IMG/VR virus record: IMGVR_UViG_3300036985_002275
Location: 1 to 26,010 of that record
Length of the DNA stretch: 26,010 nucleotides
DNA from: a virus
Reading direction: 5' to 3' (one strand)
Part shown: one piece after another, positions 2,217 to 18,156 of the stretch
Layout of the letters: each line of letters starts with the position of its first letter
How positions within the stretch are numbered: position 1 is the first letter of the stretch
The notes under the pieces: model-generated
Told to the model about the DNA's origin: nothing
Databases searched by the model: none
What the model saw: only the letters and a program-made list of their open reading frames with translations
Program-made: the position numbers and the translations under genes

Positions 2217-2436
2217 TTTTCTCGGGCTACCCCTTGCTACCCTAACTTCGTTGCGTGATAAATATATCACTTGTCTTGAAGCGATAGCGGTGGCGGGTTC
2301 AAGCTATTCGATCGCAGGCCGTTCTTTTTCAAGGGCGAACCTCGGCGAAGTCCGTGATACTATCGCAGAATTGACCCTAGCCATTGAGTCTGCCAACGGC
2401 ACTCGTATCCGCACCACTTACGCAAAGTTCTCGTGA
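2203..2436 (+). CDS. gpW-like head-tail joining protein
   Basis: A 77-residue protein lying between terminase and portal, exactly where lambda gene W lies between A and B. It shows the gpW plan: an N-terminal helix (about 12-28, TLTSLRDKYITCLEAI), a short beta hairpin with an aromatic and a polar turn (SYSIAGRSFSRANL, about 34-47), and a second helix (EVRDTIAELTLAIES, about 49-63). gpW binds the portal ring after DNA filling and forms the platform for tail attachment. A purine-rich Shine-Dalgarno (GAGGAGGAGG) lies just before the ATG, inside the end of terL, and the two genes overlap by 14 bases. The identity rests on size, predicted fold pattern and position rather than on strong sequence identity. 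Confidence 0.75.
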   Translation: MAKGDFLGLPLATLTSLRDKYITCLEAIAVAGSSYSIAGRSFSRANLGEVRDTIAELTLAIESANGTRIRTTYAKFS

Positions 2437-5400
2437 AAAAAGCACAGCTAAATTTAATCGATAAAGCCGTTGCATTTCTGAACCCGCAGGGGGCAGTTAA
2501 TCGGATGATTGCACGGCAGAAGCTCGTCAACTTCTCTTACGATGCGGTTAAATATACAAGGGAACGCAAGGGGCCGAGTTCGCTTTCTGGTGCGGAAGAT
2601 TATCGCTCCAACTACGACCGAGTAGAGTTAATGAAAAGGGCGAGGGACTTGGCAGAGAATGTTGGCCTTGTTCGCTCCATCTTAATGAAGTTCGCTAGCC
2701 ATACCGCCGCCAATGTCTCCTACCAAGCCCGAACCGAGAACCCAGAAGTCAATACCGAGGTCGAAGCATATTGGGCAGAGTGGTGGGACAAGTGCGACCT
2801 AACTACAAGACATACCGGTTCAACGCTTATGCAAGTGGCGATGATGTCGATGCTCCGAGATGGTGACTTCCTTTTCGTTTTGGTTCGAGATAAGGATGGC
2901 AACCTAAAGATTCAAGGCATTGAGGCAGACAGATTGGGCGACCCATTCAAGGTTTATACAAGCCTAGATTTGATTGGTGGAATCCATATTGATCGAGATA
3001 CTGGTGCGCCAAGTGCCTACGATATTTACAACCGAAGCATCGGAGACTTTTACACCTACCAAGCAACCATCCCCTCAAGCCAAGCCTTTCACTTGTTCGA
3101 CCCACTCCGCATTGACCAGTACCGAGGAATCTCCGCTTTCCACACCGCTATCAATGACGCAACAGACATCTACGATATAATCAACTTCGAGAAGATGGCC
3201 GCTAAAAATGCAAGCTCACAAGCTGGCATCGTGAAGCGCAATAACAACAATGGCTCCGACCTCTCCTCGCTCACAAACGATGAAGACCTAAATGGGAACA
3301 CGATTAAGCTAGAAGCGATTGAGTCGGGTAAAATCTCCTACCTAGAACCGGGCGAAGATATTATTTTCCCAGATGGCCCGAGCCGACCAAGTGGAGCGTT
3401 CGCCGAGTTCCACAAGATTCTTTTGCGGAACATTTGCCTTGGCCTTGGCATCCCTTATTCATTTGCCGTTGACCCTTCCGCTATGAGTGGCCCGACTGCC
3501 CGCCTTGAGATGCAACAAGCAGGGCGAACCTTCCGCAGATACCAGAAGCTCCTCGATGATAAAGTTCTTCGCCCCATTAAAAACATCGTGATTGCAGACG
3601 CAGTTTCTAGGGGATTGATTGAGAACAATGTTGGAACAAGAACGACCAAGGGAATCTTCAACTTTGGGGCGAATGTATCGATTGATTTAGGTAGGGAGAG
3701 CCAAGCTAACTTGTCAGAATTTCGAGCGGGCTTGATGACCGCCAGTCAAATTTACTCGGAGAGAGGGCTCGATTTTGAAAGCTCTATGCGACAAAGGGCT
3801 ATTGAGGCCAAGCTGATTAAGGATTTGGCTAGTGAGTATGAAGTTTCGGCAGACACAATTTCCGACATCGCCGCAGAGGGATTGACCAGAGATTCACAAA
3901 AAGCACAAGCAACTACACCAGAAGGCGAACAGAAGCCCGCTGGACAACCTTCGGACGAGGATATGCTTGGCGGTGCTTCGCTCAACGGAGCGCAAGTCGC
4001 TTCGCTTATCAATGTTATCAATGCCGTGGCGATGGGTGCAGTTTCCAAGGAGGGTGCAGTTTCGATTATCACAGCGGCCTTCCCAACCATCAGCCCAGAC
4101 CAAGCAAGGGCAATCGTCGCTGGGGTAAATATCGGGACAACCATCCCAACGACCAAGGAAGAGAAACAACAGATTACAAAAGACCAAGGCGGGGATACTT
4201 CGGGAGGCTCGACCCCTCAAGAACCCGCACCCACCCCGCCCGCCCCCCAAGGCACAACTCAAAAAAAAAGTAGTTTAGAAGTTTTGGAAAGCCTCGACCC
4301 AGCATCAATCAAGATGCTCATCGAGGGGATGATGGGCGGGATTGAATTGGCGAAGTATGATGGGATTGATTTTACCCCCCCGCAAGGGGCTAGGGATGCC
4401 GCCAAAAGAGCCTTAGAGGTGCGGGATACGAAACCACCCAGCCAAAGGGGAATGACCCCTGTGGGGCTTGCTAGGGCTAGGGATTTGCAGAATGGCGTGA
4501 AACTCTCTCCAGATACAGTCAAGAGGATGCTGAACTTCCTAACTCGCCACGAAGTCGATAAGAAGGGGGCAACTTGGGATGAGCAAGGCAAGGGCTGGCA
4601 GGCTTGGCACGGATGGGGCGGTGATGCTGGCTATGCGTGGGCAAGGAAAGTAGTGGGGCAGATGGAGGCAAGGGACAACAAAGAACTAGCCCGACCAGTC
4701 TCTCAAACCCCAGCCCCTCCTAAAGAGAGAATCAAAGGCTCAAAGGAGAACCCCAAAGGCACAGCATCCACTAGAAGCAAGGCAGGGGATATTGAGATTT
4801 CAGAACAGAACGAGGAAGCCCTCAAGAACAAGATTGCAGAGTTCAAAGACAAGCACCCCTCAAGGAAAGCCCCTACGCTTGGAGCATTGAAGAAAGTGTT
4901 TAGAAGGGGGGCGGGTGCGTTCTCGACTAGCTTCCGACCCACTATCACCGGGGGCAGACCCAACTCAAGAAACGCTTGGGCGATGGCTAGGGTGAACAAG
5001 TTTCTTAAGATGGCGGGTGGAGGAGAGGTTAAAGAAAGCTATCGTAAGGCAGATGGTGATTTGCTAGAAGAAAAATTTGGTTTTGAAACAACGAAAACCG
5101 AGTTCGTTGCTGGCAGAGATTGCGGGCAAGATGAGGGTGGGACTTTCGGGCCAGATAATAAGTGTGCAGAAGGCTACGGCAGACCCCCGCTCAAAGGAGG
5201 CTATACCCCAACCCGACCCGGTGGGAAATTCCCCAAAGATTACAAGAGGCCAACAGAGCAAGGCAGAGAAGAGAAATCTCAAAAACCAAAAGAGACTCCG
5301 GGTCAAAGAATCAAAAGAAGTCAAGAAATGGATGAATTAAATAAAAACATTGATAATATAGGTGGCTATCAAGTTATTGGAAAACCAGCAATCAATAACG

Positions 5401-5609
5401 CAAAAGAAAAGTCCATTGAAAGACTTAAGACTATTCAAGGAATGCTCAATTCAAAAGATATAAAAGAAAATAGTGATTTGATCGAAGAAACGAGAAAAGA
5501 TTTAGACTTCTGGAAGAATGAGTTAAAAGGAACAAGTTATAAATATATTGCAGACGATATTGATAAATCATTAGCCAACATTAACAGCATCCTAAAAACT
5601 TATAATTGA
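2433..5609 (+). CDS. Portal protein (lambda gpB family) with long modular C-terminal extension
   Basis: A 1058-residue protein, about twice the usual length for a lambda-type portal. The dodecameric portal core is seen in about residues 1-480: ELMKRARDLAENVGLVRSI near the N-terminus and, towards the end of the core, LGLGIPYSFAVDPSAMSGPT and RRYQKLLDDKVLRPI. After it come separate modules: about 515-565, a helical LNGAQVASLI block that also ends other phage portals; about 640-750, a KYDGIDFTPPQGARDAAKRA / VGLARARDL / RHEVDKKG / WGGDAGYAWA block; about 815-866, ALKKVFRRGAGAFSTS / NAWAMARVNKFL; about 896, a CGQDEGGTFGPDNKC motif; and about 955-1058, a Lys/Glu-rich, probably coiled-coil tail. The middle modules are of kinds I recall as add-ons to phage head proteins, but I cannot name their function. 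The last 300 bases are clearly more AT-rich than the rest. Translation starts at GTG, overlapping the gpW-like stop as GTGA. Confidence 0.93.
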   Translation: MKKAQLNLIDKAVAFLNPQGAVNRMIARQKLVNFSYDAVKYTRERKGPSSLSGAEDYRSNYDRVELMKRARDLAENVGLVRSILMKFASHTAANVSYQARTENPEVNTEVEAYWAEWWDKCDLTTRHTGSTLMQVAMMSMLRDGDFLFVLVRDKDGNLKIQGIEADRLGDPFKVYTSLDLIGGIHIDRDTGAPSAYDIYNRSIGDFYTYQATIPSSQAFHLFDPLRIDQYRGISAFHTAINDATDIYDIINFEKMAAKNASSQAGIVKRNNNNGSDLSSLTNDEDLNGNTIKLEAIESGKISYLEPGEDIIFPDGPSRPSGAFAEFHKILLRNICLGLGIPYSFAVDPSAMSGPTARLEMQQAGRTFRRYQKLLDDKVLRPIKNIVIADAVSRGLIENNVGTRTTKGIFNFGANVSIDLGRESQANLSEFRAGLMTASQIYSERGLDFESSMRQRAIEAKLIKDLASEYEVSADTISDIAAEGLTRDSQKAQATTPEGEQKPAGQPSDEDMLGGASLNGAQVASLINVINAVAMGAVSKEGAVSIITAAFPTISPDQARAIVAGVNIGTTIPTTKEEKQQITKDQGGDTSGGSTPQEPAPTPPAPQGTTQKKSSLEVLESLDPASIKMLIEGMMGGIELAKYDGIDFTPPQGARDAAKRALEVRDTKPPSQRGMTPVGLARARDLQNGVKLSPDTVKRMLNFLTRHEVDKKGATWDEQGKGWQAWHGWGGDAGYAWARKVVGQMEARDNKELARPVSQTPAPPKERIKGSKENPKGTASTRSKAGDIEISEQNEEALKNKIAEFKDKHPSRKAPTLGALKKVFRRGAGAFSTSFRPTITGGRPNSRNAWAMARVNKFLKMAGGGEVKESYRKADGDLLEEKFGFETTKTEFVAGRDCGQDEGGTFGPDNKCAEGYGRPPLKGGYTPTRPGGKFPKDYKRPTEQGREEKSQKPKETPGQRIKRSQEMDELNKNIDNIGGYQVIGKPAINNAKEKSIERLKTIQGMLNSKDIKENSDLIEETRKDLDFWKNELKGTSYKYIADDIDKSLANINSILKTYN

Positions 5610-7107: not shown

Positions 7108-8073
7108 ATGAGTTATATCGCAGGCGGTTCAACAATTCGTGCCGACATCAACCAAGCGTTGATCGAAGCCCCCACGGCTGATGTGGGTTTAATCGGGGCA
7201 GAGCTTCTCCCTTTGCAGAATGTAGATGCAAAGAGCGGAACTTACCTCAAAGTCCAACTCGGCGGTGCAGAGTTGCTCTCCAACAATGCAACGGCTCGTG
7301 ATGCTGGTTCGGGATACAGCCGAGGGATTCGTTCCTTTGGAACTGCGAACTACTCCACGGACGAATTTGGCTTGGAGGAGCTTCTGGACGATAGTAGCGT
7401 TGCAGATTTGTCGCGCTTTTTTTCGTATGAAAGCGAAACTGCGAAGTTCTTGCTCCGTCAGTTAAAGCTCTCCCACGAAGCTCGGGTGAACACCCTGCTG
7501 TTCGCTGGTAGCACCCCCTTCACCACGGCTGACCAAAGTGCGGCAGTTGCCTACACCCAAGCGAACATCGCCACAATCGATGTAGCTCGTGATGTGGCGG
7601 CCGCCAAATTGGCTCTTGGTAAATTGGGTTACGAAGCCAACTGCGTTGCAATGAACGCCGATGTGTTTGAGTTAATCAGACGCTCGACCCTCTTGCAGAA
7701 TCAGTTCTTCGGAGTTATCTCCAATACTGGTGCCCGCCTGTTGAACGAAGCTGAAATCGCGGCGGCCTTGGGAGTTCAGAAACTCCTTGTTGGTCGTGCG
7801 GCAATCAACACGGCTGGAAAAAACAAGAGCTACACCGGCTCATTCGCAATCAGCTCGGCCAAGGTTATCGTCGGCCAAGTGGCGGGTGGCGAGTTCACCG
7901 CTGGTGGAATCGGACGCACGCTGGTCTGGTCGGGTGACTCGGCTGGTGGTTTCGTATCCGAAAGCTATCGTGACGAAGCTCGCCGTAGCCAAGTGTTGCG
8001 GGTGCGGATGAACACCGATGAAGTAGTCATCGACGCTAATGCGGCTGTTCGTATCACCACTAGCTTCGCCTAA
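7108..8073 (+). CDS. Major capsid protein (HK97 fold)
   Basis: A 321-residue protein, a normal size for HK97-fold capsid proteins of the lambda gpE group. It forms the icosahedral shell. There is an N-terminal arm (ADINQALIEAP), a GSGYSRGIRSFGTANYST segment that would be the E-loop/strand region, a long helical segment (SYESETAKFLLRQLKLSHEARVNTLLF), a strand-helix region near LLNEAEIAAALGVQKLLVGRA as in gpE-like A-domains, and a C-terminal beta run (VLRVRMNTDEVVIDANAAVRI). The position after protease/scaffold and decoration protein, and the strong terminator directly behind it, match a highly expressed capsid gene. No protease cleavage site can be assigned from sequence alone. Confidence 0.9.
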   Translation: MSYIAGGSTIRADINQALIEAPTADVGLIGAELLPLQNVDAKSGTYLKVQLGGAELLSNNATARDAGSGYSRGIRSFGTANYSTDEFGLEELLDDSSVADLSRFFSYESETAKFLLRQLKLSHEARVNTLLFAGSTPFTTADQSAAVAYTQANIATIDVARDVAAAKLALGKLGYEANCVAMNADVFELIRRSTLLQNQFFGVISNTGARLLNEAEIAAALGVQKLLVGRAAINTAGKNKSYTGSFAISSAKVIVGQVAGGEFTAGGIGRTLVWSGDSAGGFVSESYRDEARRSQVLRVRMNTDEVVIDANAAVRITTSFA

Positions 8074-8103: not shown

Positions 8104-8140
8104 GGGGGGAGGGCGAAAGCTCTCCCCCCTTTTCTTTTTT
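8104..8140 (+). terminator. Strong intrinsic terminator after the capsid gene
   Basis: An 11-base-pair stem (8104-8114 with 8119-8129; all Watson-Crick except one G-T pair at 8112/8121) closed by a GAAA tetraloop (8115-8118). It is followed by an 11-base tract of T with one C (8130-8140). It lies 31 bases after the capsid stop. It should end, or strongly thin, transcription of the head operon, so the sugar-modification genes downstream need read-through, antitermination or their own promoter. Confidence 0.92.
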
Positions 8141-8180: not shown

Positions 8181-9830
8181 TTGAAACATCCTATCTCTGT
8201 TTATCTTATCGCTGGCAATGAAGAAGAATATATCGCCAGATGCCTTCAGTCTTTTAAGCCCATTTCAGAGGAGCTTGTTGTTTGCATCGCTAGGGGGAAC
8301 GCTGTTCCAGATAAAACAGAGGAGATTGCAAGGGGGTTGGGTGCGAAGATTGTTCACTATACCAACAAGAACGACTGGCCTCACATTGACGATTTCGCCA
8401 CGGCAAGGAACACGGCACTAGAGGCTTGTTCGAGTGAGTGGTGTTTATGGGTCGATGCTGACGATGTAATGGCCGAGGATGGGGGTAAGATAGTCGAAGA
8501 GGCTATTGACCTTGCTATCCAAAAAGACGCTCACCTTGTGGCGTTAAAATACAATGTGGACAACGCCGGCCTCATCCCGCTCCGAGAAGAAATTTCCAAG
8601 AGGGGGACTTGTAGCTGGAAAAACCGAGTCCACGAAATGCTTGTTACTAAAGAGCCAAACAAGACGATTGGGGTGGACAAGATTTTCCGCATCCACAAGC
8701 CCGCTGGATATAAGCCCAAAAGTGCTGAAAGGAACTTTAGAATCCTAGAGGATACGCTTTCAACTGCCCCCAACGCTCTTTATTACCAAGCCCAAGAATA
8801 CTTTTTGTCTGGTCAATACGACAAGTGCATTGATTCCAGTATGCGAGCCTTGGGCTTCTCGGAGCTAGAGGACACGCTTCGCTACGATGTTCTATGCAAC
8901 CTTGGTCGATGCGTTCCAGAAAATGAGAGGCTTTCTTACCTTGGGCAAGCCATATCACTTCAGCCCGATAGGCGAGAGGCTTATTTCTATATAGCAAACC
9001 ATTGGGCAGGGAAAGGGAACTGGGTAAAGGCTTATGGTGCGGGCAGGGCTTGTATGGCGTTGCATCGTCCCAAAGCACACTACTGGAACTTGGTAGAGGC
9101 GATTTACAACTGGCAGGCGATGGACTTATATGAGACGGCCTCGGTGTGTGTAGGGGAGCTGGGAGAGGCAGAGAAGATTCGCAAGTTCAGACCCGCCCCA
9201 AAAATCTCAATCGTTCACGCCACGAGGGGGAGGCCGCAAGTCGCTTGGCAGAGACGCTGGCAATGGCTTTCCCTAGCTCAAAACCCGCTAGAAATTGAGT
9301 GGTTGTTTATGGTCGATCACGATGAGGCGATTGATTACACCCCCCACCAAGCTATCCGAGTGAACCCCGGAGGCATCGTCAACGCTTGGAACGCAGGGGC
9401 TAAAATAGCTAAAGGGGACATTATCGTTCAAATGAGCGATGATTGGACACCACCCCGCCATTGGGATGCCCTAATTTCGAACGCTATTGGGGATACAAAG
9501 GCAGAGAAAGTGCTGGCAGTATCAGATGGCCTACGCACAGATAAACTCCTCTGTATGGCGATTCTGACGCAAGCTAGGCTCAAGAAGCAAGGGCATCTAT
9601 TCCATCCAGACTACCAAGACTCGGACGGCATCTATTCGGACAACGAGTTCACGGAAAGAGCCTATGCAGAACAAGCAGTAATCGAGGCTAGACAAATACA
9701 ATTCAAACACGAGAATCCTATGTTCGCTGGGGGCAACCCAGACGAGCAACTAAAAAACCACAACAAGCCGGAGTTCTACCAAAAAGGAAAAGCAATTTAT
9801 GAAAAACGCAAAGCAAATAATTGGATGTAG
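8181..9830 (+). CDS. Two-domain glycosyltransferase (GT2 + TPR-like linker + second GT-A domain)
   Basis: A 549-residue protein. Residues 1-150 form a family-2 glycosyltransferase: ISVYLIAGNEEEYIARCL at the start, FATARNTALEACSSEWCLWV and the metal/nucleotide-sugar motif DAD at 92-94. Residues about 190-330 are helical with paired-helix pattern (NALYYQAQEYFLSGQYDKCI, ISLQPDRREAYFYIANHW), like TPR repeats. From about 340 a second GT-A-like domain starts (ISIVHATRGRP), with AWNAGAKIAKGDIIVQMSDDW, acidic pair at 420-421. This architecture suits stepwise transfer of sugars to a protein or a glycan. Translation seems to start at TTG, as no ATG or GTG fits, and no Shine-Dalgarno is visible; GAAATCC lies just upstream. 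It is the first gene after the capsid terminator. Confidence 0.85.
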   Translation: MKHPISVYLIAGNEEEYIARCLQSFKPISEELVVCIARGNAVPDKTEEIARGLGAKIVHYTNKNDWPHIDDFATARNTALEACSSEWCLWVDADDVMAEDGGKIVEEAIDLAIQKDAHLVALKYNVDNAGLIPLREEISKRGTCSWKNRVHEMLVTKEPNKTIGVDKIFRIHKPAGYKPKSAERNFRILEDTLSTAPNALYYQAQEYFLSGQYDKCIDSSMRALGFSELEDTLRYDVLCNLGRCVPENERLSYLGQAISLQPDRREAYFYIANHWAGKGNWVKAYGAGRACMALHRPKAHYWNLVEAIYNWQAMDLYETASVCVGELGEAEKIRKFRPAPKISIVHATRGRPQVAWQRRWQWLSLAQNPLEIEWLFMVDHDEAIDYTPHQAIRVNPGGIVNAWNAGAKIAKGDIIVQMSDDWTPPRHWDALISNAIGDTKAEKVLAVSDGLRTDKLLCMAILTQARLKKQGHLFHPDYQDSDGIYSDNEFTERAYAEQAVIEARQIQFKHENPMFAGGNPDEQLKNHNKPEFYQKGKAIYEKRKANNWM

Positions 9831-9867
9831 GCAATCAAAAAAGGGAGAGAATATTAAGGGGCTTGGT

Positions 9868-10053
9868 ATGATTAGATTCGGCAAGTCTCGCCCCGACCCC
9901 ACCAAGTATGTGAAGGTTGATATTACCTATGACGAAAAAGCAGAGAAAGATTTGTATGAGTGCGGGATGCTTGCATTAAAGCACGACAAGGAAGCGGTGA
10001 TTCAATATGTGATCGTGAAGGCTCTTACTGGATACGCAAAGTGCAAGAAGTAA
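9868..10053 (+). CDS. Small conserved-type unknown protein
   Basis: A 61-residue protein (from ATG 9868, MIRFGKSRPDPTKYVKVDIT) with a strand-helix-helix pattern and several Lys/Glu residues. I do not recognise a family. An in-frame ATG at 9799 with AAGGA upstream would add 23 residues and overlap the glycosyltransferase end by 32 bases; both starts are possible. I prefer 9868 because it avoids this overlap, but the ribosome site of 9799 is at least as good. It is embedded in the glycan cassette and overlaps the next gene by 13 bases, so it is likely co-translated with it. Confidence 0.55.
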   Translation: MIRFGKSRPDPTKYVKVDITYDEKAEKDLYECGMLALKHDKEAVIQYVIVKALTGYAKCKK

Positions 10054-10649
10054 GCATTAACGATTCATTCGGCAAAGCCCTTGCAAAGTACAGCGAGGGA
10101 CTAGAAGTAGGGCTAGAGATCGGGGGAGGAACTGGGGACGGCTCGACTCAATGTATTAAGACAAAAAGGCTATTCAGCATTGAGAACCACCCAGACCGCA
10201 TCGGCAGACACTCGATGAATCTATCTGCAAGGGGAGGCGTTGCCATTAATGGAACGGCAACCTTGTCGAAATTCTGGATGAACAAGAACGACATCGAGGA
10301 GTTTTACCGAACTACCAAAACAAACCTCAATCAATACCCCATCGAAACAATCCTAGGCTGGCACAATGTCTGCCTAGAAACCGCCTTTCCATATTCAACC
10401 AACGCCATCGAGGACATCCATTTCGAGCATAATGTGGATTTTAACTTTGTGCTGATCGATGGCTCGCCTTTTTCTGGGGAATCAGAACTGCGTTGCGTTC
10501 GCCCATTCCTAGCAGAGAAGGCAATCATCGCCTTGGACGATGTGAACGATATTAAGAACTGGGCGAACTACCACAAGCTCAAGGGATTTGCCGAACTGCT
10601 CTGGGAAGATTTGTCGGTGCGTAATGGTGCGGCCATATTCCAGCTATGA
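10041..10649 (+). CDS. SAM-dependent methyltransferase-like protein
   Basis: A protein of about 202 residues with a Rossmann-type SAM-binding start: LEIGGGTGDGST as motif I, followed by LFSIENHPDRI, where the acidic residue at the end of strand 2 would hold the ribose. Later comes FVLIDGSPFSGESELRCV and AIIALDDVND, the acidic strand-4/5 pattern of class I methyltransferases of the small-molecule or sugar type. The start is uncertain: the frame is open to 9960, but the first codons there overlap the previous gene; GTG at 10041 is the latest good start before the conserved part. The next gene begins in its stop codon (ATGA). The substrate cannot be told; sugar O-methylation is inferred from the glycosyltransferases around it. 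Confidence 0.65.
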   Translation: MQEVSINDSFGKALAKYSEGLEVGLEIGGGTGDGSTQCIKTKRLFSIENHPDRIGRHSMNLSARGGVAINGTATLSKFWMNKNDIEEFYRTTKTNLNQYPIETILGWHNVCLETAFPYSTNAIEDIHFEHNVDFNFVLIDGSPFSGESELRCVRPFLAEKAIIALDDVNDIKNWANYHKLKGFAELLWEDLSVRNGAAIFQL

Positions 10650-11215
10650 CCATTGTTCAAATTGGATGTAACGACGGTAAAGATCATATCCTAGACTTTT
10701 GCCAAAAGAACAGGGAGAGCATCGAGGCAATACATCTCATAGAGCCAAACCCAGAAGTACTCGAGGATTGCAAGCAGACATATTCAGATTTTAAGCAAGC
10801 CAGATTCTACAACCTTGCGATTGTCCCGAACGATGCCGACTCTGTTGACTTGCACATCCCACGCTCAAAGGCACTCAACGCCCACTCCTCGACATTAAAA
10901 AATCACCTAATAGACCACGGCCATACAAGTTTTGATACAATCAATGTACCAGCTACAAGCCTTACCAGCTTCCTCCATTCAAATAAAATCGAGAAGTGCG
11001 ATAGACTTTATATCGATGCGGAGGGCTTGGATTGTGAGATCATACTTAATTTTGATATTGAAAAACACAATATCAGAAGAATCGAATTTGAGACTCTTCA
11101 TTCCGATGGATTTCTAGCAAAGGGTAAAAACTACAACTCTTGCATTGATAAACTAAAAGCCCTCGGCTACAAGGCAACAGAAGCAGGCGAATACAACGAA
11201 GCTTACGAACTATGA
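10646..11215 (+). CDS. FkbM-family methyltransferase
   Basis: A 189-residue class I methyltransferase of the FkbM type. Motif I is VQIGCNDGKD near the N-terminus, followed by IHLIEPNPEVLEDC, in which the Glu after the second strand is typical. A C-terminal LYIDAEGLDCEIIL (the D-x-EG-x-D signature of the family) and RRIEFETLHSDG close the fold. FkbM enzymes methylate hydroxyl groups of sugars and polyketides and are common in O-antigen and capsule clusters. The gene overlaps its neighbours on both sides by four bases (ATGA), so the three methyltransferase genes form a tight translational unit. Confidence 0.85.
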   Translation: MTIVQIGCNDGKDHILDFCQKNRESIEAIHLIEPNPEVLEDCKQTYSDFKQARFYNLAIVPNDADSVDLHIPRSKALNAHSSTLKNHLIDHGHTSFDTINVPATSLTSFLHSNKIEKCDRLYIDAEGLDCEIILNFDIEKHNIRRIEFETLHSDGFLAKGKNYNSCIDKLKALGYKATEAGEYNEAYEL

Positions 11216-11751
11216 ACCATATTATTGCAGATTTTGGAGAGGCTTGGTTCGACTCGCCCAATGTCTATAAAATGCTTGTGGAGAATTGCAGAGACGATGG
11301 TAAGATTGTCGAGCTTGGTGCGTGGAAGGGAAGAAGCTCGGCATTCCTTGTGGTTGAGGCATACAACAAAAGCCCAAAGATCGAGGTTCATATTGTCGAT
11401 ACTTGGGGAGGAAACCCCTTTAATGGCTCGGAAGATCAATCTAATGACCTATATGATAAATTTATTTCTAATATGTCTCTACTTGCCAGACCCTACCAAG
11501 CCCACAGAATGACAACAAACGAGGCGGCGGGGCTTTTCAAAGACGAGTCTCTAGACGCAGTTTTTATAGACGCAGATCATTCCTATGAGGCCGTGAAGAT
11601 GGACATTGAAAACTGGATGCCCAAAGTTCGCAAGGGTGGGATACTGGCTGGACACGATTATAATTCCGCTTGGCCGGGAGTCATAAGGGCAGTTAATGAG
11701 ATATTCCCAGAGGCTCAAAAAATAGACTATTGCTGGGTAAAACAATGCTAA
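11212..11751 (+). CDS. Class I SAM-dependent methyltransferase (Methyltransf_24-like)
   Basis: A 179-residue protein with motif I IVELGAWKGRSSAFL, the strand-2 region VHIVDTWGG, then LDAVFIDADHSYEAVKMDIE and VRKGGILAGHDY. The IDADHSYE...GHDY pattern is typical of the Methyltransf_24 / TylF-like group, in which the Asp residues bind a metal near the substrate hydroxyls. It is the third methyltransferase-like gene in a row and overlaps the FkbM gene by ATGA and the next glycosyltransferase by seven bases. Its likely job is modification of a sugar made or attached by the flanking glycosyltransferases; this is inference from context. Confidence 0.85.
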   Translation: MNHIIADFGEAWFDSPNVYKMLVENCRDDGKIVELGAWKGRSSAFLVVEAYNKSPKIEVHIVDTWGGNPFNGSEDQSNDLYDKFISNMSLLARPYQAHRMTTNEAAGLFKDESLDAVFIDADHSYEAVKMDIENWMPKVRKGGILAGHDYNSAWPGVIRAVNEIFPEAQKIDYCWVKQC

Positions 11752-12512
11752 CCATCTTTACCATCGTTCTTAATGGGATGCCGTACATTGAGAGGCATCT
11801 TGCCGAGTTTCAAAAGCTAAAGATTCCTTGGCAATGGAGGATAGTTGAGGGGGTGAGCGAGCCTCTAGGATGCACCCGCTGGTGCAAGCAAGTTCCCGAC
11901 AAATGGCACAAGGATTTCAAGAGCATAGATGGAACGCACGAATATTTGGAAAGTATAAGGAGCGAGAATGTTTCAGTCTATTGGAGGTCAAACCCCTTCC
12001 CCGGCAAGCTGGCGATGATTAACGAATCGTTGCAGGGGGTGGAGAATGGCGTGGTGATGCAAATTGATTCAGACGAGATGTGGAGAGCCGACCAAATAGA
12101 GGCAATCTTTGGGCATCTCAAGGGGTGCGAGGATGGGCGAGCGATGCAGTTCCATTGTAATTACTATGTTGGGCAGAATAAAAAAGTAGTGACTAGGGAG
12201 GGCTTGGGTTCAAATTGGTACGAGTGGTTTAGGGCTTGGAAGTGGGGGAAGGATGTTCACTTCACCAGCCATGAACCCCCCAAGCTGAATGTCCAATCGA
12301 TGATGATTCCAAGGGGGGTGACAGAAACTTGGGGGCTAACCTTCGACCACTTCGCCTACGCAACCAAGGAGCAGGCACAATTCAAAGAAGATTTCTATGG
12401 GTATAAGGGGCTAGTCGAGGGATGGGAAAGACTGCAACAAACCACAAGCCCAGTTCGATTAAGGGATTATTTTCCATTCATAACAGACAAAAGCGTAGTT
12501 GATGAGTGTTAA
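11745..12512 (+). CDS. GT-A fold glycosyltransferase
   Basis: A 255-residue protein starting MLTIFTIVLNGMPYIERHL, the usual beginning of a family-2-like glycosyltransferase, with a DSD metal-binding motif (QIDSDEMW, 108-110). The middle contains many Trp residues (NWYEWFRAWKWG) and the end has LTFDHFAYATKEQ. The ATG at 11745 is chosen over an upstream TTG at 11730; it lies just before the stop of the methyltransferase gene. It should transfer one sugar from a nucleotide-sugar donor in the cytoplasm. The acceptor is unknown. Confidence 0.8.
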   Translation: MLTIFTIVLNGMPYIERHLAEFQKLKIPWQWRIVEGVSEPLGCTRWCKQVPDKWHKDFKSIDGTHEYLESIRSENVSVYWRSNPFPGKLAMINESLQGVENGVVMQIDSDEMWRADQIEAIFGHLKGCEDGRAMQFHCNYYVGQNKKVVTREGLGSNWYEWFRAWKWGKDVHFTSHEPPKLNVQSMMIPRGVTETWGLTFDHFAYATKEQAQFKEDFYGYKGLVEGWERLQQTTSPVRLRDYFPFITDKSVVDEC

Positions 12513-13173
12513 AACTATTAAGTATTCGCAGAGGCTTGGGGATGTGCTTCGTTGCCTTCCGGCTTGCAAATACCTAGCCGACCAAGGCCACGAAGTTTTC
12601 TTTGATTGCTTCGATCAATATCACGGAGTCTTTGATTTGGTTAGCTATGTGAAGGCTGGGAGCAAGGGAGATGTTTTAGATTTGGAGATATGGCCGAACA
12701 AATACAACGACTTCATAAAAAGTAAAAAGACTTGGCACGACTTTGTTTATAGCCATCCAGAGATTAAGGAAGCAGACAAGACCAACATTATCCTAGATAA
12801 GCTAGACGATAAACCAGCCGAGGGACTCCCAGAGACTTACAACCTAGTTGCCCCTTTTGGCATATCCCAAACATTCTACCGCAACCCGCTAACCCTAATC
12901 CAAGATGCAGTTAAAGAGCTTGGCAAAGAGAGCGTGTTTGTTTTGTGTCCCCCAGACATAAAGATTCAAGGGTTGAACACCTACACAGCACAATCGATTG
13001 AGCAAATGGCGAAGGCCATTAGGGGGGCAGATCAGTTCTGGGCGGTCAATTCTAGCCCTATCATCATAGCCTCTGCGGTTAGGAGGGAGAAGGAAAGCAA
13101 GTTTTGGGGTGAGAAAAATGAGTCAGAAGTGCAGAATGTTTTTCACTTTCAAGGGCTAGTAAGGATGGATTGA
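12502..13173 (+). CDS. GT-B glycosyltransferase, heptosyltransferase (GT9)-like
   Basis: A 223-residue protein beginning VKTIKYSQRLGDVLRCLPACKYLADQGHEV, which matches the N-terminal pattern of ADP-heptose:LPS heptosyltransferases (rGDvl...P....l). The second half has a short Rossmann part (YNLVAPFGIS, ESVFVLCPPD) and the donor-site-like IEQMAKAIRGADQFWAVNSSPIIIASAV, close to the usual (GxDSG.mHlA) region but without its standard residues. It is shorter than typical GT9 enzymes (about 320-350 residues), so it may be reduced or divergent. It is the last gene of the glycan cassette, and its TGA is part of a TTGACA at 13170-13175. Confidence 0.65.
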   Translation: MSVKTIKYSQRLGDVLRCLPACKYLADQGHEVFFDCFDQYHGVFDLVSYVKAGSKGDVLDLEIWPNKYNDFIKSKKTWHDFVYSHPEIKEADKTNIILDKLDDKPAEGLPETYNLVAPFGISQTFYRNPLTLIQDAVKELGKESVFVLCPPDIKIQGLNTYTAQSIEQMAKAIRGADQFWAVNSSPIIIASAVRREKESKFWGEKNESEVQNVFHFQGLVRMD

Positions 13174-13189: not shown

Positions 13190-13507
13190 ATGGCTGGCAG
13201 TATCCCCACCTCCTACTTCGCAACTGATCTGCAATTTATGATTGCGGATATGTTTCAAACAGTCACAGGGCTTGGCTCAAGTTCCGTCTCTGCCTCTGTC
13301 ACAGACCTAACCACGGCAAGCGAGTTGGAGATAGGCGGTGAAGTGTTTAGGGTGACTCAGAGCCTTGTAGTTGTAGCTTCTGGAATCTCTGCCCCAGTCA
13401 TCGGCTCTCTTTGCACAGTTAGCGGGGTGGAGCGTATGATCGGAGGATTTTCGCAAAGCACAGATGGCCTTTCCTTTACCATCGAACTTGCGGAGATTAC
13501 AACCTAA
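13190..13507 (+). CDS. Head-tail connector protein (gpFII-like stopper, tentative)
   Basis: A 105-residue protein with a short N-terminal helix (ATDLQFMIADMFQTV) followed by a beta-rich domain (ELEIGGEVFRVTQSLVVVASG, ERMIGGFSQSTDGLSFTIELAEI). Size and fold pattern suit the small head-tail attachment proteins of siphoviruses (lambda gpFII is 117 residues), and it stands first in the connector genes after the inserted glycan cassette. GAGGTGG precedes the ATG. I see no motif that proves the role; position is the main argument. Confidence 0.55.
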   Translation: MAGSIPTSYFATDLQFMIADMFQTVTGLGSSSVSASVTDLTTASELEIGGEVFRVTQSLVVVASGISAPVIGSLCTVSGVERMIGGFSQSTDGLSFTIELAEITT

Positions 13508-13923
13508 TGGCCTCGATAGAGAGGGAGGTGGAGAACGCCCTCCTAAATGTAGTTTCGGGGATAGGCGGGGTGAACTTCTTTACGAGCGAGAGAGGCACGG
13601 CTAGGACGATGCCGAGCGTTACGGTTCAAGCCCAGATTGGGTCAGAGGAGCTTGTGCCTTTCTCTGGTGTGTTCAAAACTCCCGCCACAATTACCTATGT
13701 CGCTAGGGCAGACACAACCGCAAGAGCCGACTTTGATGCCAAGTTTTATGATATCCTAGAACAACTCTATCGTGACCCAGACTTGGCGAGCTACCTTACA
13801 ACCAATTCAAACATAACCTTCTATGTGGCGAAGGTGACCGGGGATACCCCCGCCGTGATAAGTCAGAATAGAACTTGGTCAAGGGCTATGACGCTAGACA
13901 TCACGGCCACGGCAAAGAAATGA
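13507..13923 (+). CDS. Tail completion/terminator-type protein, paralogue A
   Basis: A 138-residue protein starting in the stop of the previous gene (TAATG). N-terminal helix (EREVENALLNVVSG), then a beta segment (TMPSVTVQAQIG), VFKTPATITYVARAD, a helix DFDAKFYDILEQLY, and a C-terminal SRAMTLDITATA strand. This helix/strand layout is that of small tail terminator or neck proteins (lambda gpZ/gpU zone, HK97 gp10-type). It aligns along its whole length with the next protein, so the two arose by duplication. One of the pair may cap the tail tube and the other may act at the neck; I cannot tell which. Confidence 0.6.
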   Translation: MASIEREVENALLNVVSGIGGVNFFTSERGTARTMPSVTVQAQIGSEELVPFSGVFKTPATITYVARADTTARADFDAKFYDILEQLYRDPDLASYLTTNSNITFYVAKVTGDTPAVISQNRTWSRAMTLDITATAKK

Positions 13924-14411
13924 ACCAGAGCGTCCAAATCAATATCGAGGATGCCATTGAGAATCTCTTGGCTAATGTTCCCAACCTAAACACCTATAAG
14001 ACTAATCGGGTGGGGGCAAAGCCATTCCCCTTCGCAACAATCTCCGCATCGGTAGGGGGTCAGCTCCTCGGCAACTACACCGGAGTTTATGAAGTAGCCG
14101 TAACAATCGACTACTCCGACACGGCGGCCAAGACAAGCCAAGAGGCTTTTGACGCTGAATACTGCTCTATCTTTGAGGCATTCTATTCTGAAACCCCTCC
14201 TCTCTTTACCAAGATACAAAATAACATAGTCGATACAAAGGTTTATACGGCACGGATTACTGGTCAAACCCCAACTATTAGAACAGCCAAAAGGGCTTGG
14301 CAAAGGGGCTTGAAGATGAGCCTAATTTGCACCCCATCAGAGCTAGACGATGGTTTGCGATTCTTAGATTTCAGCGAAGAGCGAAACTCTATGTATGTGG
14401 CCGTGATTTAA
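13920..14411 (+). CDS. Tail completion/terminator-type protein, paralogue B
   Basis: A 163-residue protein starting at the ATGA overlap (13920-13923); an in-frame ATG at 13875 is rejected because it would lie deep in the previous gene. It repeats the layout of its neighbour: IEDAIENLLANVP helix, FPFATISASVG strand, VYEVAVTIDYSD, helix EAFDAEYCSIFEAFY, KVYTARITGQTPTI, and AWQRGLKMSLICT strand, with the shared TGxTP...R.W.R pattern near the end. It has an extra C-terminal tail of about 27 residues. The likely role is in the neck or tail-end ring, between head and tail. Confidence 0.6.
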   Translation: MNQSVQINIEDAIENLLANVPNLNTYKTNRVGAKPFPFATISASVGGQLLGNYTGVYEVAVTIDYSDTAAKTSQEAFDAEYCSIFEAFYSETPPLFTKIQNNIVDTKVYTARITGQTPTIRTAKRAWQRGLKMSLICTPSELDDGLRFLDFSEERNSMYVAVI

Positions 14412-14427: not shown

Positions 14428-15672
14428 ATGGCACTCCCAATTTTAGACGGCAATCAGTCGGCAACTACGCTCTCAACCATCCTTTCTAGCGGTCAACATA
14501 TCACAGCCCATACGGTTGTTAGCCTTGGCACTCAAGCGATTACAGATATAGTCAATGCGACTTCTGCTGGCCTTACCAACACCCAACTCCGAGCAAGCGC
14601 AGTTACCGTGGGCGGGACAGTTACGGTTGGAAACTCAGTCACCATCAGCTCTCTCCCCGCCATCTCCGGCACGGTATCTGTTAGAACTGACTTAGATGCA
14701 AATTCGGGTCTACCTTGCGTTGCAGTTGCATTTGATTCAATCGGAGGGGTTCAAAGGGTTGGAGCCAATAACGGTTTCCCAATACGACCTATGCAAGATG
14801 GGGCCGGGAATAGCATACCACTAGCAATCTCTGGCACGGTTACCATCGGCTCTGCCCTACCTACTGGCACAAACAGCATCGGAGTAGTGACGATTGGAGC
14901 AGGGACAGTCACCATCGGAGCAGGCACGGCACAAATCGGAAGCGTGACGGCGTCTATCAGCGGGACGGTTCCCATTAGCATCTCCTCCGTCACGATTGGA
15001 AACAGCATCACTATCGGATCGCTTCCCGCCATCTCTGGAACGGTGACTGCGAATGTTTTTGGAACAAACTCAATAAATCAAATTCCATTAAATATGACCG
15101 TTGAGGGTGATGGATTTGCGAATGGCAATAGATTGGCAGTATCAATAATTGATGATCAAGGCGCAGAATATGGTACTAGCTCACCTCTTATTGTTTCTGG
15201 AACAGTCACAGTCGGCAACACGGTTGCAATTGCTGGCACAGTTACCGCTAATCCGACAGGCACACAGACGATTTCGGGTTCTGTAACCCTCGCAGCAGGC
15301 ACAGCCCAGATCGGCTCTGTAACGGCATCTATATCTAACAGCGTAACGATTGCGTCTCTCCCTGCGATTAGTGGGACGGTCACGGCCAACACCTTCGCCT
15401 TGCAAGGCACGGCCGTCACTACCTCTAACTTTACCAGCACAACGGCCTCTACCGTGCTTGCTAATTTCAATGCGAGCAGAGAAGTGCTGACGATTTTTAA
15501 CGAGGGAGCTGGCAACCTTCATATCTGTGCAGGGGCAACTTGCACGACCATCGCATACCAAGTTCGCCTATCGGCGGGGGATTACTACGAAGTGCCAAAT
15601 CATCAAACGACTATCACGCACTCGGCCGTATTCGCCACCGCAGGCACGGCTAGGGTGACGCAAGTTAGTTAG
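14428..15672 (+). CDS. Repetitive virion protein, fibre/adhesin-like
   Basis: A 414-residue protein made almost wholly of Gly, Ser, Thr, Val, Ile and Ala, with short beta-strand repeats such as TIGSLPAISGTV (near 73, 197 and 309) and AGTAQIGSVTASIS (near 165 and 290). Such repeats suggest a beta-helical or triple-beta fibre shaft. The C-terminal 80 residues are different: EVLTIFNEGAGNLHICAGA, YQVRLSAGDYYEVP and TAGTARVTQVS, a small beta domain I have often seen at the end of phage virion proteins. Its place, between neck genes and the tail tube, is unusual for a tail fibre; it may instead decorate neck or head. Its many Ser/Thr residues make it a possible target of the upstream glycosyltransferases (inference). 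AAGGAG precedes the ATG. Confidence 0.65.
   Translation: MALPILDGNQSATTLSTILSSGQHITAHTVVSLGTQAITDIVNATSAGLTNTQLRASAVTVGGTVTVGNSVTISSLPAISGTVSVRTDLDANSGLPCVAVAFDSIGGVQRVGANNGFPIRPMQDGAGNSIPLAISGTVTIGSALPTGTNSIGVVTIGAGTVTIGAGTAQIGSVTASISGTVPISISSVTIGNSITIGSLPAISGTVTANVFGTNSINQIPLNMTVEGDGFANGNRLAVSIIDDQGAEYGTSSPLIVSGTVTVGNTVAIAGTVTANPTGTQTISGSVTLAAGTAQIGSVTASISNSVTIASLPAISGTVTANTFALQGTAVTTSNFTSTTASTVLANFNASREVLTIFNEGAGNLHICAGATCTTIAYQVRLSAGDYYEVPNHQTTITHSAVFATAGTARVTQVS
14602..15395 (+). repeat. Degenerate in-gene repeats coding for strand motifs
   Basis: Within the fibre-like gene, units coding for (N)S(V/I)TI(S/G/A)SLPAISGTV occur three times (around 14634, 15001 and 15338) and AGTAQIGSVTASIS twice (around 14920 and 15295). 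The DNA of the copies differs at many third positions, so the repeats are old and kept at protein level, and are not a recent DNA duplication. Confidence 0.75.
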
Positions 15673-16986: not shown

Positions 16987-17022
16987 ATGCAAAACACACT
17001 TTCTAACGAGGTTTCAATCTAA
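16987..17022 (+). CDS. 11-residue leader peptide before the tail-tube gene
   Basis: A mini-frame MQNTLSNEVSI and stop, with a good AAAGGAG five bases before its ATG. Its TAA shares a base with the ATG of the next gene (TAATG at 17020-17024). The tail-tube gene itself has only a GAGG. The arrangement looks like translational coupling that raises or times expression of an abundant protein. The peptide probably has no function of its own. Confidence 0.45.
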   Translation: MQNTLSNEVSI

Positions 17023-17369
17023 TGGCGGCCGTCACGATTGGCACGGCGGGCTTGTCTTTCGGCTTGGTTGCTGAAGCTGGCATCGGGCTGGTTCAGAGCT
17101 TCTCAGAGGCTCGTAATGTTGAGAAGAATGAAGTCCGCAATAACGCCGGCGATATAGTTGCTATCGGATACTATAACGCCACAACCTCCTACTCCCTCTC
17201 GGTTGCCATTACCGGCTCTTACAATGTGACTGCTGGGGCGGCTCTTGCGGCCTTGGCGAATGCAACCACCCTCGGAACTACCCGCATCGACTCCATCACG
17301 CTGAACAAGAGCAACGATGCGTTTGTGACCCTCGATATCTCGGCTACTGGCTATCCGAATGTAAGTTAA
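17022..17369 (+). CDS. Putative major tail (tube) protein
   Basis: A 115-residue, Ala/Thr/Ser-rich beta-type protein located two genes before the frameshifted chaperone and upstream of the tape measure, where siphoviruses carry the tail tube gene. The pattern EARNVEKNEVRNNAGDIVAI followed by alternating strands (TSYSLSVAITGSY) and a helix (TAGAALAALANA), ending in FVTLDISATGY, fits a small tail-tube fold. It is shorter than usual (150-250 residues), so it may be a minimal tube protein. A hairpin lies directly behind it. No homology search was made; position and pattern are the grounds. Confidence 0.6.
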   Translation: MAAVTIGTAGLSFGLVAEAGIGLVQSFSEARNVEKNEVRNNAGDIVAIGYYNATTSYSLSVAITGSYNVTAGAALAALANATTLGTTRIDSITLNKSNDAFVTLDISATGYPNVS

Positions 17370-17404: not shown

Positions 17405-17779
17405 ATGACCGAAGCCTATTGGGGAACGACTAACATAAAAGTGGCTAGTGCCGTTGCTTCCTTTGGGGCAAAGCCAAGACAGCTAGACCCAGTAACGAGG
17501 ACTATAAAAGAGGATGGAAGCACCCAAGCAACCTTCTGGTTCGAGGCTGGGGCAGGGGCAGAGGCAAGGGCAGAAATGGAGCGACCTTGGTCAGAAATGA
17601 AAAGCGACCTAGAAAGCCCCATTCGATATGTTCGAGCGGCCTTGGAGAACCGAGAAACCTTCTTGGGGCTTCTCAAGAGGGCGGTTCCGGTGCGGGTGAT
17701 ACAAAGGGGCGGGCAAACTCTACTCATCTCAGAAAACGCAACCTCGGAACAAAGAAGGGCAATCCTAAAGCATCTATGA
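17405..17779 (+). CDS. Unknown tail-region protein
   Basis: A 124-residue protein between tail tube and chaperone. N-terminus MTEAYWGTTNIKVASAVASF, a central acidic helix (GAEARAEMERPWSEMKSDLE), and a C-terminal basic part (LLKRAVPVRVIQRGGQTLLIS). I do not recognise a family. No purine-rich ribosome site precedes the ATG. Its stop overlaps the chaperone start (ATGA). Position suggests a role in tail assembly. Confidence 0.6.
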   Translation: MTEAYWGTTNIKVASAVASFGAKPRQLDPVTRTIKEDGSTQATFWFEAGAGAEARAEMERPWSEMKSDLESPIRYVRAALENRETFLGLLKRAVPVRVIQRGGQTLLISENATSEQRRAILKHL

Positions 17780-18156
17780 ACATATCCCTCGACGAAGAAC
17801 TAAACTCGGCCTTTATATCCCCAGACAAGGAATATATGGGGCAAAAACTTGCCCCTTACACGGAAGGCTCAAGACTACTCCTTTTACAAGTAAGGGATGA
17901 TAACGACTCATCGATCTACTTTATCTGGTCGTTCATCTATATGCACATCCAGATTGCCAAGGGCAGGAAAGAGGCGATCAAACTGGCTTGGAATCGGGAC
18001 TTGTTTCGTGAGAAGATTATGGATTTTATTGAGGGCAAGACAGAGGCAGATCGAGATGCGGCTACCCAAATCGTCTCTAACATCTTGGACGAAGCCCAGA
18101 AAGGCAAGGTGGAGGCCATCCCAGCCCCCCATCAGCCCGACTTGGGAAACGCCTAA
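17776..18156 (+). CDS. Tail assembly chaperone G (zero-frame product)
   Basis: A 126-residue protein (from the ATGA at 17776; the frame is open further upstream inside another gene). It has N-terminal strand/turn elements (FISPDKEYMGQKLAPYTEGS), a helical middle (WSFIYMHIQIAKGRKEAIKL) and a second helical part rich in acidic residues (ADRDAATQIVSNILDEAQKG). It stands before the tape measure, where lambda has G. The last zero-frame codons contain a -1 slippery heptamer, so most ribosomes make this short form and a few make the longer GT form. G-type chaperones coat the tape measure protein during tail building. Confidence 0.8.
   Translation: MNISLDEELNSAFISPDKEYMGQKLAPYTEGSRLLLLQVRDDNDSSIYFIWSFIYMHIQIAKGRKEAIKLAWNRDLFREKIMDFIEGKTEADRDAATQIVSNILDEAQKGKVEAIPAPHQPDLGNA

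Follow-up and report, generated by a model that had tools for sequence, protein, structure and literature searches.

A glycosyltransferase and methyltransferase island in a fixed slot between capsid and connector genes of uncultured aquatic phages, and its possible role in virion glycosylation

A single 26-kb virus record of an uncultured aquatic phage (IMG/VR IMGVR_UViG_3300036985_002275, positions 1 to 26,010, hereafter the window) carries an island of seven co-directional open reading frames (ORFs), c1-c7, at positions 8181-13173, flanked by the major capsid gene on one side and by head-tail connector genes on the other; the features described below that lie between 7108 and 17369 are on the + strand. 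The island encodes four glycosyltransferase (GT) domains, three methyltransferases and one protein without an assigned family. We consider, with moderate confidence, that it serves cytoplasmic glycosylation and methyl capping of virion proteins, a connector, tail or fibre protein being a likelier target than the major capsid protein. What is observed is the gene content, the fixed position, the selection on the genes, their fold and family assignments, the pattern of exchange among relatives and the concordance of types between neighbouring genes.

The slot is anchored by the major capsid protein gene (7108-8073; phrog_1005 major head protein, E 1e-26). Relatives were gathered with two seeds, the capsid protein and c1. 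The capsid-seeded set comprises the top 80 loci, and an alignment-based capsid scan gave the same 80. c1 is present in 76 of them, and in the remaining four the sequence runs out no more than 480 nt past the capsid gene. In every one of the 76 loci with room, nothing but a capsid-display module, where there is one, separates the capsid gene from c1. Among 74 distinct islands spanning capsid to the first connector gene, con1 (3.2-7.2 kb; identical islands were collapsed, and some loci share a contig), c1 is found in all, c7 in 66, c3 and c6 in 64 each, and c2 in 57. The FkbM gene c4 and the Methyltransf_24 gene c5 occur in 16/74 each, and elsewhere they are replaced by other enzymes: a protein that is methyltransferase-like by inspection and has no Pfam match (k6, 25 islands), a Methyltransf_23 protein (k11, 7 islands), other GTs, a sulfotransferase (L109), a galactosyltransferase-like protein (L043), or a radical SAM protein with an epimerase (L070). 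In one locus (L117:3636-5865) the interior is swapped for separate genes encoding a transketolase-pyrimidine domain, a radical SAM protein and an E1-type protein, the first and last being transketolase halves. Partial transketolases occur together with GTs in a hypervariable region of Fonsibacter (PMC6811365), a likeness that is a possible hint of the host. The island is thus ancestral to the phage group, with c1 fixed and c7, c3 and c6 usual, while methyltransferases and additional sugar genes are swapped. Co-occurrence of the genes in related phages, which had been set as a test beforehand, was found, although the seven genes are not inherited together as a block, as c4 and c5 illustrate. 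Donor-sugar genes are absent from the window island, as the original prediction stated, whereas some relatives carry an epimerase or a nucleotidyltransferase.

The capsid-display module is a further point in favour of virion glycosylation. A 96-aa decoration-like protein is encoded between the capsid gene and c1 in 27/74 islands, and in 24 islands it is followed by one variable display protein with a LamG or other beta-rich, lectin-like fold and a conserved N-terminus, MIKGGIRIGG / MARYGYGMSVSG (loci L089, L093, L113, L120, L019, L144 and L156). The pair, present in about a third of the islands, looks like an exchangeable, predicted capsid-display module. Relatives of the capsid protein were not found in 85k cellular genomes, where c1 gave two matches, both on phage-like contigs in metagenome-assembled genomes (MAGs; L149 'Betaproteobacteria' and L150 'Chthoniobacteraceae'). 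The contig of this phage group in RFYV01000066.1 (MAG labelled Betaproteobacteria; L149/L151) has a near-identical stretch in a 56.8-kb IMG/VR record; it is probably a phage in the bin, and neither MAG label is taken as proof of a host.

Two deeper clades keep the same arrangement. In clade B, whose capsid protein is 45% identical to that of the window, every member with room has the order capsid - c1 - variable sugar genes - con1-con2-con3, the sugar genes including an exostosin-GT47/radical-SAM fusion and a HAD phosphatase with a nucleotidyltransferase. Clade C differs in its protease and in its capsid family (phrog_283), and in L161 c1 is fused to a Methyltransf_24 homologue of c5 directly behind the capsid gene; this clade was seeded by c1 and says nothing about the frequency of c1 within it. 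Because clade C keeps c1 behind another capsid family, the slot is probably older than the capsid gene now ahead of c1. Since the same slot is used in 76/76 loci, clade B and clade C, c1 behaves as a core late gene and not as a sporadic moron, and the original description of a cassette inserted into, and interrupting, the late operon has to be abandoned. The gene after the c1 fusion in clade C resembles the GT domain of gp108 of mycobacteriophage Che8 (31-35% identity over 164-199 aa, E ~1e-20 to 1e-23). Che8 gp108 adjoins gp109 and gp110, and these genes lie at the end of the Che8 genome, not behind the capsid gene. The capsid of Che8 is glycosylated, and gp110 is described as essential for this (PMC12363180). 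The connection to Che8 is one of family, not of membership, because the island proteins of the window have no match to gp108-110.

The invariant gene, c1 (8181-9830), encodes a GT2-TPR-GT2 protein of 549 aa with an N-terminal GT2 domain (PF00535, E 7e-16), tetratricopeptide repeats (TPRs) and a second, GT-A-like domain with a weak PF00535 match, which are the proposed initiating and second GTs. The first domain scores 59 bits against a gathering cut-off of 23.3, conserves the DADD motif and has a GT-A fold in the model. Among solved proteins, c1 is closest in sequence to GmaR (E 5e-10) and then to SunS/ThuS, and SunS/ThuS are on top in the fold search (E 1e-15 to 1e-13); this fold reading rests on domain-level matches because the full-length model is just moderate (pLDDT 78). 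D92/D94/D95, V150-H151-E152 and S419/D420/D421 are invariant in nine proteins from three clades that are 38-66% identical to the window c1. At 37.3 bits, c1 is well short of the 350-bit cut-off of the SunS peptide S-glycosyltransferase equivalog TIGR04195. The solved relatives GmaR, SunS and ThuS act on proteins or peptides, and this kinship points to protein acceptors for c1. In the flagellin glycosyltransferase FlmG, a TPR domain binds and selects the protein acceptor for cytoplasmic O-glycosylation (PMC7591256).

The other island enzymes are assigned with varying strength. c7 (12502-13173) is a compact GT-B protein assigned to GT9 by fold alone, without a Pfam, NCBIfam or PDB profile match: its AlphaFold model is confident (pLDDT 92.7), and Foldseek places it with TibC (1e-6), WaaC (3e-6) and also 3tov (probability 1.00, TMq 0.56-0.70). 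TibC is a protein-glycosylating enzyme. c6 (11745-12512) is weakly GT2-like (PF00535, 16.7 bits, below the cut-off of 23.3), yet its DxDE motif (D108/D110/E111) is invariant. c4 (10646-11215), an FkbM-family O-methyltransferase, is above both cut-offs (PF05050, E 5e-13, 49.9 versus 22.7 bits; TIGR01444, 49.1 versus 37.7 bits), and c5 (11212-11751), a Methyltransf_24/TylF-like O-methyltransferase, likewise exceeds its cut-off (PF13578, E 4e-19, 69.8 versus 26.3 bits). The PHROG label 'DNA methyltransferase' for the c5 family was rejected because Pfam assigns c5 to Methyltransf_24/TylF. c3 (10041-10649) is a class I methyltransferase and a degenerate relative of the c5 family, below the PF13578 cut-off (14.2 versus 26.3 bits) and with an invariant S-adenosylmethionine motif, EIGGGTGDGSTQC. 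PDB profile searches with c3, c6 and c7 gave no useful match, and a profile search with c2 (9799-10053, 84 aa, overlapping c1 and c3) found no family. The conserved start of c3 is GTG 10041, not 9960, and those of c6 and c7 are ATG 11745 and ATG 12502. All six junctions of c1-c7 overlap; 'most with ATGA overlaps', as first described, was too strong, since only c3/c4 and c4/c5 are of the ATGA type. Median ratios of nonsynonymous to synonymous substitution (dN/dS) are 0.08-0.18 across all seven genes, similar to those of the structural genes (c2, 0.175), so the ORFs are not chance ones, and every island gene including c2 is under purifying selection. The predicted inventory of a seven-gene set between capsid and connector genes, with four GT domains, two of them in one protein and one of GT-B type, three methyltransferase-like proteins and one unassigned protein, is therefore confirmed, and the proposal that such a late-operon set could make a methylated glycan is supported.

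The question of which protein is modified is approached through the linkage of c1 to its neighbours. A strong intrinsic terminator hairpin (8104-8129; an 11-pair stem and a T-run) lies in the interval between the capsid gene and c1, as had been predicted, and a stable hairpin with a T-run is found behind the capsid gene in 101/101 distinct intergenic regions of relatives. At the other end, con1 (13190-13507; 27.6% Ser/Thr) starts 16 nt 3' of c7 and is apparently co-transcribed with it, and the c7-con1 spacing is constant across 63 relatives. With the terminator conserved upstream and this spacing constant, the island is tied to the connector/tail unit. Divergence of c1 follows that of con1, con2 (13507-13923), con3 (13917-14411) and the tail protein 17022-17369 (rho 0.77-0.84; 0.80-0.84 for con2 and con3), and its rho with the capsid protein, only ~110 bp away, is 0.24. 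In a matched set of 54 loci, the rho of c1 is 0.80 for con1 and 0.21 for the capsid protein (bootstrap difference 0.38-0.75). No mixed c1/con1 type is seen among 65 distinct combinations, which fall into two main types (50 versus 15), and c1 types are concordant with those of con1-con3 and the tail protein without exception. A single capsid type is found with four c1 types, and identical terminases and near-identical capsid proteins can occur across both c1 types. The protein most differentiated between c1 types is the tail protein 17022-17369, by synteny the probable major tail protein (median identity of type I to type II, 0.34). c3 crosses types freely (rho 0.23 with c1), and the interior genes are exchanged independently of c1 and c7. 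This reads as a matching of the GTs, above all c1, to the connector/tail proteins, with an interchangeable methyl capping. The tracking of connector/tail genes by c1 also makes the major capsid protein a slightly less likely acceptor. Of the targets first proposed, virion proteins remain likelier than the host surface. The con2 of one relative (L171:11398-13212, on the contig of L117) is 605 aa long versus the usual ~140 and ends in a Laminin_G_3-like domain, which suggests that this protein is surface exposed in that phage.

The following sequence of events may be proposed. In the cytoplasm, at a late stage of infection, a newly made structural protein would be bound by the TPR segment of c1, whose N-terminal GT2 domain would add the first sugar to a Ser/Thr (or similar) side chain. 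The chain would then be extended by the second GT domain of c1, by c6 and by the GT9-fold c7, using host nucleotide sugars, and the glycan would be O-methylated by c3, c4 and c5. Candidate acceptors are con1-con3, the tail protein and a Ser/Thr-rich (27%) protein with SGTV repeats encoded at 14428-15672. Since the extension and capping enzymes are exchanged in relatives, the phage group would display many versions of one basic glycan.

Several points weigh against virion glycosylation. The glycan, the enzyme activities, the order of steps, the acceptor and the donor sugars are deduced from sequences and models. The concordance of c1 with the connector genes could reflect a recombination block edged by the conserved terminator, because double crossovers within the island leave the c1-con linkage intact, and the contrast is less marked among type I loci (c1-con1 0.65, c1-capsid 0.43, c1-tail protein -0.05). 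Finally, GT2 and GT9 enzymes are also builders of the lipopolysaccharide (LPS) core, and the sub-family matches are below equivalog cut-offs.

The last point bears on an alternative that we regard as rather unlikely, in which the island acts on the LPS core or O-chain at the host surface late in infection and keeps progeny or competitor phages from adsorbing to infected cells or their debris. A GT2 enzyme with a beta-1,4-glycosyltransferase profile (phrog_13126), a WaaC-like GT9 enzyme and FkbM/TylF methyltransferases also make up an LPS-type set, the content is as variable as that of surface antigen loci, and for pelagimyophages a hypervariable GT/radical-SAM island among the structural genes has been interpreted as modifying the O-chain (PMC7029224). 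However, presence here is universal and not sporadic, the island sits in the late operon at a fixed spacing to connector genes, the kinship of c1 with GmaR/SunS and its TPRs favour protein acceptors, and the clade C neighbour is homologous to Che8 gp108; it is because of this universality, connector linkage, kinship and gp108 link that we rank modification of the host surface so low. In addition, no flippase, polymerase or membrane-bound GT was recognised among the annotated island proteins, transmembrane segments not having been predicted with a dedicated tool. Of what marks a lysogen-borne, serotype-converting LPS cassette, neither flippase, polyprenyl GT nor O-antigen GT was recognised among these proteins, and a tyrosine integrase was not found among 17 long contigs of relatives. 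It is improbable that the slot is a mere hot spot of gene exchange, where c1 and c7 would contribute to particle structure or assembly (as a TPR scaffold) and the genes between them would come and go as morons acting on unrelated small molecules: the independent exchange of interior genes and the presence among them of radical SAM proteins, transketolase halves and a sulfotransferase would fit, but the active-site motifs of the two GT domains of c1 do not vary even between clades at 38% identity, nearly all interior genes are sugar-acting or methylating, and every gene is under purifying selection. Glycosylation of hypermodified phage DNA against restriction, for which phage GTs able to hypermodify DNA with diverse glycans (cited in PMC12619734) and the PHROG name of the c5 family might speak, is very improbable and was rejected, as the genes lie in a structural operon, c5 is Methyltransf_24/TylF-like, and no thymidylate synthase/hydroxymethylase family, nor other base-modification gene of this type, was found in the 17 long contigs.

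In the rest of the window, the genes follow the order of a lambda-type phage from head to tail, beginning with HNH, large terminase, gpW-like joiner, portal and protease-like protein, then a small decoration/scaffold-like protein and the major capsid gene, the island, and three connector/tail-completion genes. con1-con3 are named from gene order and have no family match. They are followed by the Ser/Thr-rich repeat protein, a LamG protein, tail genes and an endolysin. The portal ORF (2433-5609, 1058 aa) combines a lambda-type portal with a long C-terminal extension that partly matches the phage family phrog_2859, to which no function is assigned. At 17405-18156, ahead of a probable tape measure of 433 aa, two small overlapping ORFs resemble tail-assembly chaperones with a possible programmed frameshift. 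A promoter scan gave no excess over shuffles.

A broader proposal, which we make only tentatively, is that virion glycosylation is obligate and self-contained in these widespread uncultured aquatic phages, with the GT2-TPR-GT2 initiator matched to the tail/connector proteins and the extending and capping enzymes (adding methyl, sulfo and radical-SAM-modified sugars) shuffled between lineages. Such a shuffled system, if real, would correspond in phages to the variation of surface antigens. If this is confirmed, an entire lineage that is common in metagenomes would make a methylated glycan coat obligately, with diversification built in, which opens the question of roles of phage glycans beyond animal immunity, such as receptor choice, decoy binding, particle stability, grazing and superinfection. 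The locus also supplies compact candidates for cytoplasmic protein glycosyltransferases and sugar O-methyltransferases, and a defined genetic slot for finding more.

To our knowledge, a small number of mycobacteriophages are known to have glycosylated particles; virion glycosylation was reportedly described by Freeman in 2023 for Che8 (gp108-110), Corndog and Myrna. Among 50,697 records of isolated phages, none has the window capsid protein, the second domain of c1 or c7, and the first domain of c1 gives nothing more than weak partial matches. The mycobacteriophage systems are similar in that phage-encoded GTs act on virion proteins (PMC12363180), and in the homology of the second GT of clade C to gp108, which, by our reading of its sequence, is itself a GT-methyltransferase-like fusion. 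They differ in that the window GTs are not detectably related to gp108-110, in the location of the Che8 genes, and in lacking the c1 architecture, the GT9 enzyme and the exchangeable methyltransferases. SunS/GmaR-type GT2 enzymes share with c1 an N-terminal GT2 domain with DF..ARN, DADD and VHE motifs followed by helical repeats, whereas c1 has a second GT domain, sits in a phage late operon and is far from the SunS cut-off. The host recognition cluster of pelagimyophages is comparable in that hypervariable GT and radical-SAM genes of aquatic phages there, too, occupy a fixed site among the structural genes. It belongs to myophages, measures ~45 kb, includes tail fibres and has been interpreted as modifying LPS (PMC7029224); the present island is 3-7 kb, anchored by one invariant bifunctional GT in the capsid-connector slot. 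In the chlorovirus PBCV-1 (A064R, A061L), virus-encoded, mostly soluble multi-domain GTs and O-methyltransferases cap the virion glycan, although this is an N-linked glycan of an algal giant virus with early expression, and no homology is claimed (PMC9614988). By analogy, FlmG and PBCV-1 may serve as models for initiation by c1, extension and methyl capping. Virion glycosylation itself is thus already known, and it is the form of this locus that is new.

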